Below, piece by piece: positions 3,449-7,544 of a stretch of DNA of 25,318 nucleotides. Under the pieces are notes generated by a model. It had not been told where the DNA came from, searched no databases, and saw only the letters and a list, made by a program, of their open reading frames with translations. The first letter of the stretch is position 1; every line of letters starts with the position of its first letter. Source of the stretch: a virus; IMG/VR virus record IMGVR_UViG_3300046003_004737, positions 1-25,318 of that record. One strand, given 5' to 3'. A program made the position numbers and the translations under genes.

Positions 3449-4162
3449 TTATCCGTAGTACCAATTCTTCTTTTCAGTTCTCTTCCTAACAACCTTTTTT
3501 GATTGTAATGTTTTTATATGGTCAAATAACTCGGTATCAAAATATCTCAATATAAACTTATCAAACATAAAATTCTTTTTTAACTTAACAATTGTCCAAA
3601 ATCTGTACTTAATATCATCAATATGAATTGCAGGTTTATTATATATACAATATATAGATTTGCATGTGGTAATATTACATTTAATTGTCATATATAGTTT
3701 TATTCGACGTTTAATTTTATTAAATAACTTTGATTCCGTATAATAACTAAAATATTTGAGATTTCTTGTTATTTGATTTTTACACTCAACCTTATCAAAA
3801 TTCCATAGATTTTTATATAAAATTATTGAATTGGTTACCTGTCTGTGTATATCAATATAAAAATCAGAATTCATATCGGTTTTTTCATTGACTACAGGAA
3901 ATAAACATTCTGCAATAAATACATTTTGATATGATGTATTAAAATAGTTTGAACCACGATAATTGATATGTTGTAGGTAATAATCATTTACTTTTATTCG
4001 GCGTTCCTGATCAGGTGATATTTCAAACGACTTACAACATTTTAAGAAATACAAATTAGTTTGTTGATAAAAAAATGAACTTAAATGTTGTTGAACGTTT
4101 GTTAATCCTCTCACTTTAAATTTAAACTTATTCATACATTCTTCTTTTGTACTATCACTCAT
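3449..4162 (-). CDS. Hypothetical basic protein, 237 aa
   Basis: A basic, Tyr/Phe/Lys-rich protein beginning MSDSTKEECMNKFKFKVRG and ending VVRKRTEKKNWYYG. Several cysteines occur (C41, C42 and CNITTCKSIYC near 160-170), but not in a clear zinc-finger spacing. No recognisable catalytic motif or transmembrane helix. AAAGGAG lies 13 nt before the ATG, somewhat long but usable. The gene stands just after the terminator at 4204-4237, and I could not find a convincing promoter between them, so it may depend on read-through. Strong basic character suggests nucleic-acid contact, but that is only inference. Confidence 0.55.
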   Translation of the reverse strand: MSDSTKEECMNKFKFKVRGLTNVQQHLSSFFYQQTNLYFLKCCKSFEISPDQERRIKVNDYYLQHINYRGSNYFNTSYQNVFIAECLFPVVNEKTDMNSDFYIDIHRQVTNSIILYKNLWNFDKVECKNQITRNLKYFSYYTESKLFNKIKRRIKLYMTIKCNITTCKSIYCIYNKPAIHIDDIKYRFWTIVKLKKNFMFDKFILRYFDTELFDHIKTLQSKKVVRKRTEKKNWYYG

Positions 4163-4203
4163 AATTCGTATTACACTCCTTTCAAAAAGTTATGATAAAA
4201 AAG

Positions 4204-4237
4204 AAAATGAGTATTTAAATTAATAAATACTCATTTT
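4204..4237 (-). terminator. Rho-independent terminator after 4321-4692
   Basis: A 14-bp perfect stem (AAAATGAGTATTTA, 4204-4217, with its complement at 4224-4237) encloses a 6-nt loop. On the minus strand it is followed by TTTTCTTTTTT-like sequence. It comes after the stop of the 123-residue acidic protein. Confidence 0.75.
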
Positions 4238-4320
4238 TATGAAGGGATGAATTGTCAATATTATTAATTATTTATCAATAGTTTATTATTAATATTTTAT
4301 ATATATAGTATTCTTAAAAT

Positions 4321-4692
4321 TTAATCCTCATCAAGAAAATCAGGTGAGTTAATAAAATCTTCAGAATTTGTATTTAGATTATAATCTTCAATTTTAGAGT
4401 TAATTTCTTTATCAAGATTTTCAATAAAATTAATACATGCTTGAACAGTTAATTCTTTAATAAAACAAACTGAACAAGTTGAATCTTCAAAATCACTAAA
4501 ATTTAATTCTTTGTCGATCTTTTGTAAGTTTACACTTAGATCAGTTAGCTTTGAAATTTCAGTTGATAACTTACGAATGTATAAAATTGGTTGAATTTTA
4601 TCTAAAAGAATTTTTAGTTCATCAACTTTTTCAATAAGTTCGTCAGTATGATTGTCATAGATTGATAAAATTTTTTGTGTAGATTCGCTCAT
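4321..4692 (-). CDS. Acidic coiled-coil hypothetical protein, 123 aa
   Basis: An acidic, Leu/Ile-rich protein (MSESTQKILSIYDNHTDELI... ending INSPDFLDED). Residues about 15-65 have heptad spacing suggestive of a coiled coil. A single C-x2-C (CSVC) occurs near residue 73, with one further Cys near 86. AGAGGA lies 11 nt ahead of the ATG. It is a single-gene unit with its own weak promoter and a terminator behind it, divergent from the tail tube gene. Its acidity resembles 5777-6253, another single minus-strand gene flanking the tail tube gene. Function unknown. Confidence 0.6.
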   Translation of the reverse strand: MSESTQKILSIYDNHTDELIEKVDELKILLDKIQPILYIRKLSTEISKLTDLSVNLQKIDKELNFSDFEDSTCSVCFIKELTVQACINFIENLDKEINSKIEDYNLNTNSEDFINSPDFLDED

Positions 4693-4776: not shown

Positions 4777-4787
4777 GGACAAATATT
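4777..4787 (+). promoter_or_regulatory. GGACAAAT motif upstream of the tail tube gene
   Basis: The string GGACAAATATT occurs 144 nt before the tail tube start. GGACAAAT is found four times in the window, always upstream of structural genes and in their orientation (also 6337, 21251 and 25146). It may be a phage-specific promoter element or an mRNA leader element. Confidence 0.45.
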
Positions 4788-4807
4788 TGAAAATATTATA
4801 AGATTTA

Positions 4808-4826
4808 TCTCTAATTGTTGACGGTG
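4808..4826 (+). repeat. Left copy of an inverted repeat in the tail tube leader
   Basis: TCTCTAATTGTTGACGGTG; its 16-nt core (4811-4826) recurs in perfect inverted form at 6369-6384, and the match extends three more bases with a single-base bulge. It lies 95 nt before the tail tube ATG. It also contains TTGACG (4818-4823), which with TAAATT 17 nt later (4841-4846) could be a promoter for the tail tube gene. Confidence 0.7.
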
Positions 4827-4920
4827 TTTATAATTCGATTTAAATTATTATATTTAAATCACTTTTTATTTTTTCGAACTTACCTAAATTAATTATACAA
4901 TAATATAAGGAGAATGTCAA

Positions 4921-5700
4921 ATGGCAGAAAATAGTTTTATTGCAGCCGCATCAAATAACAATACATTTACAAGAAAATTTGGTACTACAAATGGTGAAGA
5001 AGTACAACCATTTCTATCAGGTAGAGGGTTTGTCGAGTTTACAGGTTTACCTGCGCTTCTTCCTAATGTAGTTAATGCTAATCGCAAATTATCACACAGA
5101 AAACAAATAGATTCACCGGGAATTAAAAGCTTACTAGAATCTACAAACTTATCATTAACAATTCCGGGTAAGACTGTTAACAAGACTGAATTTACTGGTC
5201 TTGGTGGAATTACTTGGGGTGTACCAACAAACGTTCAAGTTGATAGTACAATTTCAATGAGATTCTTTGAACTTGCAAACACACCATTACTTAGTATTTT
5301 TCATGGGTGGGTTAGACTCATTCAAGATACACGTAACGGTGTATCATTACTTGGCGACGTTGGTGCTGGTGGTGATATGTACTTAAAGCAAAACTATGCT
5401 TGTAACGCATTCTACTGGACAACTCAGCCTGATGGCGCTACAATTGATTATGCAGCTTGTTTTACTGGTGTATTTCCAATGAGAGATCCCGCTGACCAAT
5501 TTGGATTTGATTTAGCATCTATCGATAAGGTTGAAATGGATATTGACTTCAGCTTTGATTATATGTTTGAAGAAGATTGGGTATATCAACAGTGTAACCA
5601 ATATTCAACCAACAGAAAAGGTAAAATGCCATCATCTTACAGTAACGAACTTGTACCTACTGGTGCTTTAGATGATTATGTACGTCACGCTCAAATATAA
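4921..5700 (+). CDS. Probable tail tube protein, 259 aa
   Basis: A structural protein without signal peptide, beginning MAENSFIAAASNNNTFTRKF. The segment MRFFELANTPLLSIFHGWVR (near residues 112-131) followed by DTRNGVSLLGD, and the late segment VEMDIDFSFDYMFEED, resemble the strand-and-helix layout of myovirus tail tube proteins (T4 gp19 class). It is longer than T4 gp19 (about 163 residues), so it may have an added domain. It has AAGGAG 9 nt upstream and is the best-expressed-looking gene here: strong site, single-gene unit, own terminator, all typical of a protein needed in many copies. A sheath or other tail protein is an alternative. The assignment rests on context and weak pattern similarity. 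Confidence 0.55.
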   Translation: MAENSFIAAASNNNTFTRKFGTTNGEEVQPFLSGRGFVEFTGLPALLPNVVNANRKLSHRKQIDSPGIKSLLESTNLSLTIPGKTVNKTEFTGLGGITWGVPTNVQVDSTISMRFFELANTPLLSIFHGWVRLIQDTRNGVSLLGDVGAGGDMYLKQNYACNAFYWTTQPDGATIDYAACFTGVFPMRDPADQFGFDLASIDKVEMDIDFSFDYMFEEDWVYQQCNQYSTNRKGKMPSSYSNELVPTGALDDYVRHAQI

Positions 5701-5722
5701 TAATACCATAGTATAATTTAAT

Positions 5723-5758
5723 AAAAATAGGCATGTTATTTAAAACATGCCTATTTTT
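5723..5758. terminator. Bidirectional terminator between tail tube and 5777-6253
   Basis: A 15-bp perfect stem (AAAAATAGGCATGTT at 5723-5737, complement at 5744-5758) with a 6-nt loop. The plus strand continues with a run of Ts and the minus strand with TTTTTATT. It sits between two convergent genes and can serve both. Confidence 0.9.
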
Positions 5759-5776
5759 TTATTTATAAATTATTAT

Positions 5777-6253
5777 TTAATTAATATCAATATTATTATT
5801 TTTAATAAAGTTATATAGAATTTTAATTGTGTGTAATGATTGATCTCTACGAAGTTCATAACATTTTTGTCCGAATTTGTCAATAAAAATAACACTTTCA
5901 TCAGAGTCATTATTATCTAATAATTCGGGATCATTATTATATTTTTCTCTAAGTGTATCTGAATATACACTTAATTCATTTTTTAATTTAATAAACCGCT
6001 CATTTAAGCTTTTTAGTTCTGTGTCATCTGAACTATTCAAAAACTCATCTCGTGGAGCATCTGGACGATTAAACACATCATAAGAATTAAATGGTGATTT
6101 AATAATAAATTTAATATGATCAATTGGACTATTATCTTCGTCTAATTTATCAATAAAGCTTTTGTTTACTTCATCTAAACTATGTTCGGATTTAAATATA
6201 CTCAATTTTTCCATTATAATGTCGGTCATGTCTTGTGGTAATTTATCTGTCAT
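5777..6253 (-). CDS. Acidic hypothetical protein, 158 aa
   Basis: An acidic protein beginning MTDKLPQDMTDIIMEKL and rich in Asp, Asn and Ser, with a charged helical middle (LKSLNERFIKLKNELSVYSDTLREK split over several turns) that may form a coiled coil. The start at 6253 is chosen because AAAGGA lies 8 nt upstream; the in-frame ATG at 6262 directly abuts that site. It is a lone minus-strand gene between the tail tube and the tail chaperone, with its own promoter and a shared terminator. This moron-like placement makes a separate, non-structural role plausible. No family recognised. Confidence 0.65.
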   Translation of the reverse strand: MTDKLPQDMTDIIMEKLSIFKSEHSLDEVNKSFIDKLDEDNSPIDHIKFIIKSPFNSYDVFNRPDAPRDEFLNSSDDTELKSLNERFIKLKNELSVYSDTLREKYNNDPELLDNNDSDESVIFIDKFGQKCYELRRDQSLHTIKILYNFIKNNNIDIN

Positions 6254-6272
6254 AATTTCCATCCTTTTGTAA

Positions 6273-6302
6273 ATTATAAAATAAAATATAGTCCAATTTC
6301 AA
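6273..6302 (-). promoter_or_regulatory. Sigma-70-like promoter for 5777-6253
   Basis: Minus strand: TTGAAA, 18-nt spacer, TATAAT, about 20 nt before the chosen start. A second possible -35 (TTGACG at 6372-6377 on the minus strand, inside the inverted repeat) has only a poor -10. Confidence 0.5.
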
Positions 6303-6306
6303 ATTA

Positions 6307-6335
6307 TTGATTATTGTATATAAATATTATATAAT
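6307..6335 (+). promoter_or_regulatory. Promoter for the chaperone/baseplate operon
   Basis: Plus strand: TTGATT, 17-nt spacer, TATAAT, followed one base later by the GGACAAAT motif (6337-6344), which would fall around the transcription start. It lies 60 nt before the chaperone ATG and would drive the run from 6396 to 12764. Confidence 0.6.
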
Positions 6336-6368
6336 TGGACAAATTTAATGTAAATTTTAAATCAAACT

Positions 6369-6388
6369 CACCGTCAACAATTAGGAGA
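6369..6388 (-). repeat. Right copy of the inverted repeat, over the chaperone Shine-Dalgarno
   Basis: On the plus strand this reads CACCGTCAACAATTAGGAGA and includes the AGGAG site of the chaperone gene. Its reverse complement matches 4808-4826 in 19 of 20 positions (one-base bulge). RNA from the tail tube leader could pair with it and cover the ribosome binding site. Confidence 0.7.
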
Positions 6389-6395
6389 ATTTAAA

Positions 6396-7544
6396 ATGAG
6401 TATAAGTAAGTTTACTGGGTTTAAGACCTATAAGTCACCCACTTTCACAGTTACATGTCCACACTCTGGATTCCAGTATGAAGTAAGAAGTCTGAATGTA
6501 GGTGAAATCACTCGTATCAAGGAAAGTTTAATTACTTCAAATAGACTAACAGAAACTATTCTCGATATTACTTGGACAGTTATTGATAAAGATTCATTAC
6601 CAGAACAAGTGAAAAATAAGGAAGACTTTGAAAGATTTACTACTACAAATGATCGTAGTGCCATTATTTATGGTATTTATTACATTACATTTGGTGATAG
6701 TAAAGAATATGAATTAACTTGTGGTTTCTGTTCACACGCATTCCCATCAAAGATTAATTATGCTGACTTTTTCAGTATGAATTCTTATCCATATGCTAAG
6801 AATGTTATTGAATCATATAAGGTTAGTAAAGTTAATAATGTAGTTGATGAAGATCCCGAACTTGAAAATATTCTTGAAGAAAATACTATTGATGGTGTTT
6901 TAGAAAAATTTGAAGGATTAATTCCTGTTAAAGATATGCCAATTGGTCTTGCTCAGGCTGATACAAATTATAATGACTTCTTTGAATTTTATAATAAAGA
7001 AGGTTCTGACTTAAAGTTAGATTATAATAGTGTTGTTTATAAACTACATGATATTCGTTTAGCCAAAGAATCAAACCCCGTTGAAGTTGCTGCAACACCA
7101 GATAAAGATTCAGAGTTCTACAAAAATGATGCATTTACAAAACGAGTAGAAGTTATATTACCCGAATCCGGGGTTCTGGCTATCATTAAGGCTCCTACAA
7201 TTCATGATGAACGTATTCTACATAATCGTTTAACACACACCAACGAAGACCAATTATCAATTGCGTCCGATATTCTGTTTATAGATCGATTTGAAGAATA
7301 TGAAGCCGGAAAGACCAGTCCAATTCAGGTAATCTCAGATCAAACTGATATTCTAAGTGCGTACTATTCTCTTCCTATTGATGATCGTAAAGAATTAATT
7401 GATGTATACGAACGTGAATTTGGTCAATATGGTGTAGAACTTACAATCAAGTGGACTTGCCAGAATATGTATTGTAAGGAAAAGAACGAGTTGGAGGTTG
7501 ACATAATCAACCAGTTTTTTCGCACCGTTGCGGCATCACGATAA
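6396..7544 (+). CDS. Tail/baseplate assembly chaperone, T4 gp26/gp51-like, 382 aa
   Basis: The N-terminal part (FTVTCPHSGFQYEVRSLNVGE, later RSAIIYGIYYITFGD) and Cys pairs ELTCGFCSHAF (near 109-112) and WTCQNMYCKEKNE (near 356-362) match the layout of T4 gp26/gp51-type baseplate proteins: a sequence-diverse chaperone with zinc-ribbon-like pairs. Such proteins act transiently with the tape measure or hub in tail assembly. T4 has 26 and 51 directly next to 25, and here the gp25-like gene follows at 7812. Residues about 140-230 are acidic and less ordered. AGGAG lies 7 nt upstream and falls inside the inverted repeat. The 3' end contains a TTTTTTC slip site that may extend the product into the next frame. 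Assignment is from pattern and synteny. Confidence 0.6.
   Translation: MSISKFTGFKTYKSPTFTVTCPHSGFQYEVRSLNVGEITRIKESLITSNRLTETILDITWTVIDKDSLPEQVKNKEDFERFTTTNDRSAIIYGIYYITFGDSKEYELTCGFCSHAFPSKINYADFFSMNSYPYAKNVIESYKVSKVNNVVDEDPELENILEENTIDGVLEKFEGLIPVKDMPIGLAQADTNYNDFFEFYNKEGSDLKLDYNSVVYKLHDIRLAKESNPVEVAATPDKDSEFYKNDAFTKRVEVILPESGVLAIIKAPTIHDERILHNRLTHTNEDQLSIASDILFIDRFEEYEAGKTSPIQVISDQTDILSAYYSLPIDDRKELIDVYEREFGQYGVELTIKWTCQNMYCKEKNELEVDIINQFFRTVAASR
7515..7521 (+). other. Candidate programmed frameshift site TTTTTTC
   Basis: In the chaperone frame this reads CAG TTT TTT CGC, seven codons before the TAA. A +1 (or -2) shift on TTT TTT C enters the frame of the 7528-7794 reading frame, which is open from 7507. 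CGC is a rare-type Arg codon for such AT-rich DNA and could slow the ribosome. A small CGCA/TGCG stem follows immediately. Confidence 0.5.

Follow-up and report, generated by a model that had tools for sequence, protein, structure and literature searches.

A candidate trans-acting RNA from the tail tube locus of a large contractile-tailed phage and its predicted pairing with the Shine-Dalgarno region of a tail assembly chaperone gene

The DNA analyzed here (the window, that is, the whole stretch of 25,318 nt) is an IMG/VR virus record with 30.5% GC, and it is a piece of a large contractile-tailed phage. Its tail tube gene and a gene for a tail assembly chaperone-like protein had only remote named matches, all of them in giant phages (AR9, PBS1, phiR1-37, BpSp, and SA1). 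The following genes and coding features make up the locus:

4321-4692, minus strand: gene upstream of the tail tube gene
4921-5700, plus strand: tail tube protein, 259 aa (phrog_45 tail tube, 3e-6; Pfam Phage_TTP_14, below the cut-off)
5777-6262, minus strand: gene between the tail tube and chaperone genes
6396-7544, plus strand: tail assembly chaperone-like protein, 382 aa (T4_baseplate-like, PF12322, below the cut-off)
7515-7523, plus strand: slippery site TTT TTT CGC, continued by an extension in the +1 (or -2) frame that stays open to 7794

The second plus-strand gene lies near the tail tube gene and appears to frameshift into an overlapping downstream frame, as would be expected of a tail assembly chaperone. 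In a comparison that drew on L139-L143 and L144-L222, the pattern TTY TTT CGN was found in 58 of the 61 relatives, 15-30 nt before the chaperone stop, and was followed in nearly all cases checked by an open +1 (= -2) frame of 43-100 aa. From this pattern, a programmed +1 or -2 frameshift in the chaperone gene is very likely. Tail chaperones of the lambda type mostly use a -1 frameshift.

Direct single-protein searches of IMG/VR and of genome contigs returned nothing useful, whereas profile searches worked, and the tail tube profile identified 245 relatives in IMG/VR (80 among the matches listed). In the first set of relatives (L139-L143), as in most of the others, the tail tube and chaperone genes are mostly in operons, so that this set gave no leaders to compare; the comparison of leaders is based on a small number of relatives in which these are long. 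Alignment searches returned L144 and L145 as the sole closer kin. The L145 tail tube is 57% identical to that of the window, and its contig of 245 kb carries two RNA polymerase beta sets, like the giant phages of the AR9 group. Both L144 and L145 share the layout of the window (minus gene, tail tube, minus genes, chaperone). L144 additionally has a phage-encoded tmRNA gene at 4067-4430 on the minus strand (RF00023, 88.9 bits).

The noncoding features recognized around these genes in the window are:

4777-4784, plus strand: GGACAAAT, candidate late promoter of the tail tube leader or small RNA (GACA-N6-TG; predicted start about 4789)
4789-4920, plus strand: predicted long tail tube leader (start position inferred)
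4808-4826, plus strand: antisense segment TCTCTAATTGTTGACGGTG, the complement of the Shine-Dalgarno region of the chaperone gene, with further pairing at 4837-4844
4837-4876, plus strand: A/T hairpin GATTTAAAT..ATTTAAATC and, after it, a T-rich tract (predicted fold; possible weak terminator)
4892-4920, minus strand: sigma-70-like promoter without mismatch (TTGACA-17-TATAAT), directed toward the minus gene 4321-4692
5723-5758, strand unassigned: terminator-like hairpin after the tail tube gene, which supports separate transcripts
6337-6344, plus strand: GGACAAAT, candidate late promoter of the chaperone gene (59 nt to the ATG; predicted start about 6349)
6356-6388, plus strand: segment of the chaperone leader that would be targeted, complementary to 4808-4844 and containing the Shine-Dalgarno AGGAG at 6383-6387

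The sequence CTAATTGTTGACGGTG at 4811-4826 (plus strand) is the exact reverse complement of 6369-6384. This 16-base repeat was pointed out in an earlier, sequence-only reading of the window, and both its position and the distances reported with it were confirmed: 95 nt separate the left copy from the tail tube ATG, and GGACAAAT lies 34 and 32 nt upstream of the copies. That reading also placed the whole AGGAG inside the right copy, which is true of an extension with one bulge that runs to 6387 and takes in the Shine-Dalgarno sequence, but the perfect 16-mer holds only its AG. The repeat search stretches the 16-mer to 25 nt with 84% complementarity, and a second block of 8 bases pairs GATTTAAA (4837-4844) with TTTAAATC (6356-6363). 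Because other distant exact matches of 16-17 nt are found in the AT-rich window (4551/10266, 4843/23291, 4451/16006, and 10226/24019), the length of the 16-mer is by itself unremarkable. The pairing of the two complete leaders, however, exceeds chance. Their duplex energy, a calculation proposed with the original observation, was -34.1 kcal/mol by RNAduplex against a shuffle mean of -17.5, a value reached by 0 of 1000 shuffles (about 5 standard deviations), and none of 10000 shuffles had as high a local-alignment score. Among 23 gene starts, the chaperone was the best target of the tail tube leader (-31.9, with the next at -19.0).

The 16-mer itself was missing from the tail tube relatives examined. 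It was also considered as a mobile or shared regulatory element and rejected as such, its 32 matches in IMG/VR being at chance level and without exception on unrelated contigs, where the ones inspected appear to be coding (Leu-Ile-Val-Asp-Gly).

The motif GGACAAAT is present in four copies in the window, every one upstream of a virion-type gene. Two giant relatives have 22 and 30 copies, mostly just upstream of ORFs with a ribosome site, while the reversed control gave 3 and 0. The late promoter consensus mapped in AR9 is AACA-(6N)-TA/G (PMC5312081). Compared with a promoter of this type, GACA-N6-TR fits several of the GGACAAAT sites and a spacing of N7 fits that of the chaperone gene, all starts being predicted ones. 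The distance from GGACAAAT to the tail tube ATG is 144 nt in the window, 137 nt in L144, and 147 nt in L145; for the chaperone leader, it is 62 nt in L144 and 57 nt in L145, and in eight relatives GGACAA precedes the chaperone ATG by 56-63 nt. GGACAAA is upstream of both genes in L144-L147, L149, and L151. Because GGACAA(A) precedes both genes, both copies of the repeat were taken as leader sequence. GGACAAAT looks like a genome-wide late-promoter-like motif that would place both copies in the leaders of predicted late transcripts, and its position favors the earlier assignment of the left copy to the tail tube leader.

Upstream of the non-virion genes 587-1003 and 2345-2956 there are textbook sigma-70 promoters (TTGACA/TTGACT, 16-17 nt, TATAAT). 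The presence of sigma-70 promoters at non-virion genes and of GGACAAAT at virion genes suggests that the host polymerase acts early and a phage polymerase late. The minus-strand promoter inside the tail tube leader, which matches the sigma-70 consensus at 12/12 positions in the window, has counterparts in L144 (4980-4952, minus strand, 11/12) and L145 (4981-4952, minus strand, 9/12); a transcript from it would be antisense to the leader RNA. In the L150 record (G014), many GGACAAAT sites (for example 58975, 61322, and 88275 on the minus strand) have CCACAC(A/G) upstream and TAAAAA downstream in common, which suggests a second class of promoter or an extended form.

Some 1.5-1.6 kb, in which a terminator-like hairpin and a minus gene are located, separate the tail tube leader from the chaperone leader, and any antisense RNA would thus be encoded away from its target. 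Since each gene has its own candidate promoter and predicted terminators separate them, the pairing would be in trans. As for where the first RNA ends, the A/T hairpin at 4837-4876 is weak as a terminator, because a strict terminator scan missed it, but it is possible that it would release an RNA of roughly 88 nt.

Compensatory change in relatives had been suggested as a check on the antisense proposal, and such change was observed. The L145 leaders pair through TTGTGTG and GCTAATGAAA, a sequence unrelated to that of the window, at -26.4 kcal/mol. Of 1000 shuffles, 25-38 did as well by energy, and of 10000, 17-39 did so by alignment (p about 0.002-0.004); the chaperone ranks 3 of 357 genes as a target of the L145 leader. 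In L144, short pairings are found at the same place and are convincing by eye, but they were not significant by alignment (2638 of 10000 shuffles) and only weak by energy (77-164 of 1000). When the leaders of different phages of the window clade were mismatched, energies were -14.5 to -19.2, weaker than those of every cognate pair.

More distant relatives carry a different element at the same position. In L146-L151, L159, and L259, a hairpin of nine pairs lies upstream of the tail tube gene and exposes an invariant loop, CCCCUCA, which is an anti-Shine-Dalgarno sequence; a second, terminator-like hairpin follows it. The stem covaries: in an alignment of seven sequences, L259 being left out, six of the nine pairs are changed on both sides, 98.4% of the cells are paired, and 0 of 500 shuffles was equal. 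A covariance model of the hairpin (R1) gave a single significant hit in each record, in every case upstream of the tail tube gene, and had no match in AR9, BpSp, phiR1-37, the window, L144, or L145. The window, L144, and L145 would share with the hairpin phages the position and the predicted anti-Shine-Dalgarno role, not the hairpin family. At seven loci searched against Rfam (release 15), only tRNAs and tmRNAs were matched, none at the regulatory element. L148, L150, and L159 combine a late-type motif with the two-hairpin layout, while in L146, L147, L149, L151, and L259 the hairpin lies beyond the end of the preceding gene and has no clear late promoter.

The loop has its counterpart at the chaperone gene, whose start carries GAGGGG in all eight hairpin phages and in none of 40 hairpin-less relatives, although these are not independent events, because the eight are related and represent some three or four lineages. 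Loop and target pair at -13 to -18 kcal/mol among the hairpin phages, compared with -3.6 to -9.6 in combinations with the window clade. At least three different sequences (that of the window, that of L145, and the CCCCUC loop) thus match RNA from this one position to the chaperone start, a pattern that speaks against both coincidence and a conserved DNA operator. An inverted DNA duplication maintained by gene conversion was also rejected, as it would keep the copies identical and leave unexplained the targeting of the chaperone start in separate lineages.

Considering this evidence, we find it probable, from comparison of sequences, that a late RNA of the tail tube locus pairs in trans with the Shine-Dalgarno region of the chaperone mRNA and represses its translation. 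The RNA would start at GGACAAAT upstream of the tail tube gene and carry the antisense 4808-4826 together with 4837-4844. It would pair with the leader (6356-6388) of the separately transcribed chaperone mRNA, cover the Shine-Dalgarno sequence, block ribosome binding, and lower chaperone synthesis late in infection, so that making the major tail proteins would hold down a low-copy assembly factor. We infer that both RNAs are made, that they meet, and that repression follows. In the window clade, the RNA would be the first part of the 140-nt tail tube leader, perhaps shortened by the A/T hairpin at 4837-4876. The original proposal gave this role to the abundant tail tube mRNA. Its antisense part is strengthened by a complementarity to the Shine-Dalgarno region that recurs in relatives with different letters, but the identity of the regulator is not: most relatives have a terminator-like hairpin and a second promoter before the tail tube gene, so that the regulator is probably a small or leader RNA, and that of the hairpin phages is probably discrete or processed.

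The best surviving alternative, although we regard it as unlikely, is an anti-Shine-Dalgarno small RNA with multiple targets, of which the chaperone would be one and possibly not the main one. The best target of the L145 leader among 357 genes is not the chaperone but the Shine-Dalgarno region of an RNA polymerase beta gene, at -36.4:

L228:11651-14686, minus strand: RNA polymerase beta-subunit gene targeted by the L145 leader (record G012; sigma-70-like promoter)

This target is only suggestive, because 4 of 120 shuffled versions of the leader also find a target at -36.4. GAGGGG, similarly, is otherwise rare but is found at 20 of the 320 gene starts in G014, a gp6-like baseplate gene among them. 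Against this alternative, only the chaperone is found again as a target in each of the lineages tested, with the exception of L144.

Less probable still is that the complementarity in the window arose by chance and that the conserved hairpins of the relatives are unrelated to it. The other exact matches in the window and the result for L144 would agree with such an explanation, but it would have to accommodate the shuffling results for the window and L145 by alignment as well as the joint occurrence of loop and target in the hairpin phages. The reverse direction of control, in which the chaperone mRNA would govern read-through of the tail tube leader as an anti-terminator or sponge, could draw on a hairpin with a T-rich or weak terminator-like tract, located after the pairing segment in both the window and L145. 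It appears very unlikely, since in every case the target site includes the region where the chaperone gene starts, and since the RNA of the hairpin relatives ends at its own terminator before a second tail tube promoter, which leaves RNA-to-chaperone as the only direction that can be common to all. Finally, the suggestion that the repeat is a duplicated promoter or operator with TTGACG, serving the tail tube gene and the minus gene 5777-6262, can practically be set aside: TTGACG is present in both copies and the similarity runs a few bases past the 16-mer, but the best sigma-70 score is 9/12 at the left copy, the promoter scan lists nothing at the right copy and has higher-scoring sigma-70 sites in other places, GGACAAAT is the candidate late motif, and the 16-mer is not conserved as DNA in relatives.

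Repression of the chaperone by a tail tube-locus RNA, if correct, would have wider consequences. In phages, the ratio of scarce factors to abundant tail proteins is mostly ascribed to promoter strength, ribosome-site strength, and frameshifting, and a trans-acting RNA at the tail tube locus would add a layer of control over the ratios of tail parts. To our knowledge, regulatory RNAs are little known in lytic-type giant phages. Our broader proposal, which is tentative, is of an undescribed family of phage regulatory RNAs encoded beside the tail tube gene that silence the frameshifted chaperone and sometimes RNA polymerase beta. Such a family would belong to a lineage of jumbo phages that encode multisubunit RNA polymerases of their own, its pairing sequence would have been rewritten several times while the target stayed unchanged, and silencing of RNA polymerase beta in some members would create a late-to-earlier feedback loop. 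The pairing model gives sharp predictions of which bases pair and which swaps would break or restore the pairing.

The OOP RNA of lambda is a phage-encoded antisense RNA. Other antisense RNAs of phages are STnc6030, directed against the BTP1 tailspike, and PAK_P4as15, at an endolysin gene (PMC12197685). As with these three, a phage RNA is here predicted to act on a phage structural or lysis mRNA. STnc6030 and PAK_P4as15, however, are made opposite their target genes, in cis (PMC12197685), whereas the RNA of the window would act in trans, from about 1.6 kb away and with partial complementarity. The late promoters of AR9 are read by its non-virion RNA polymerase and give leaders of 26-491 nt (PMC5312081); like them, the candidate motif has an ACA core 10-12 nt before a T-purine and would serve many late genes (PMC5312081), but it is longer and stricter (GGACAAA[T/C]). 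In mode of action, the closest resemblance is to the C-rich (UCCC) small RNAs of low-GC Gram-positives, RNAIII, RsaE, SprD, FsrA, and LhrC, in which a C-rich loop or single strand pairs with the Shine-Dalgarno sequence and blocks initiation (PMC4132741), as predicted here. Unlike these, the RNA would come from a lytic-type phage, in which it would be encoded ahead of the tail tube gene, its likely target would be the phage's own tail assembly chaperone, and it would pair through a CCCCUCA loop or, in the window clade, through a unique and longer antisense.
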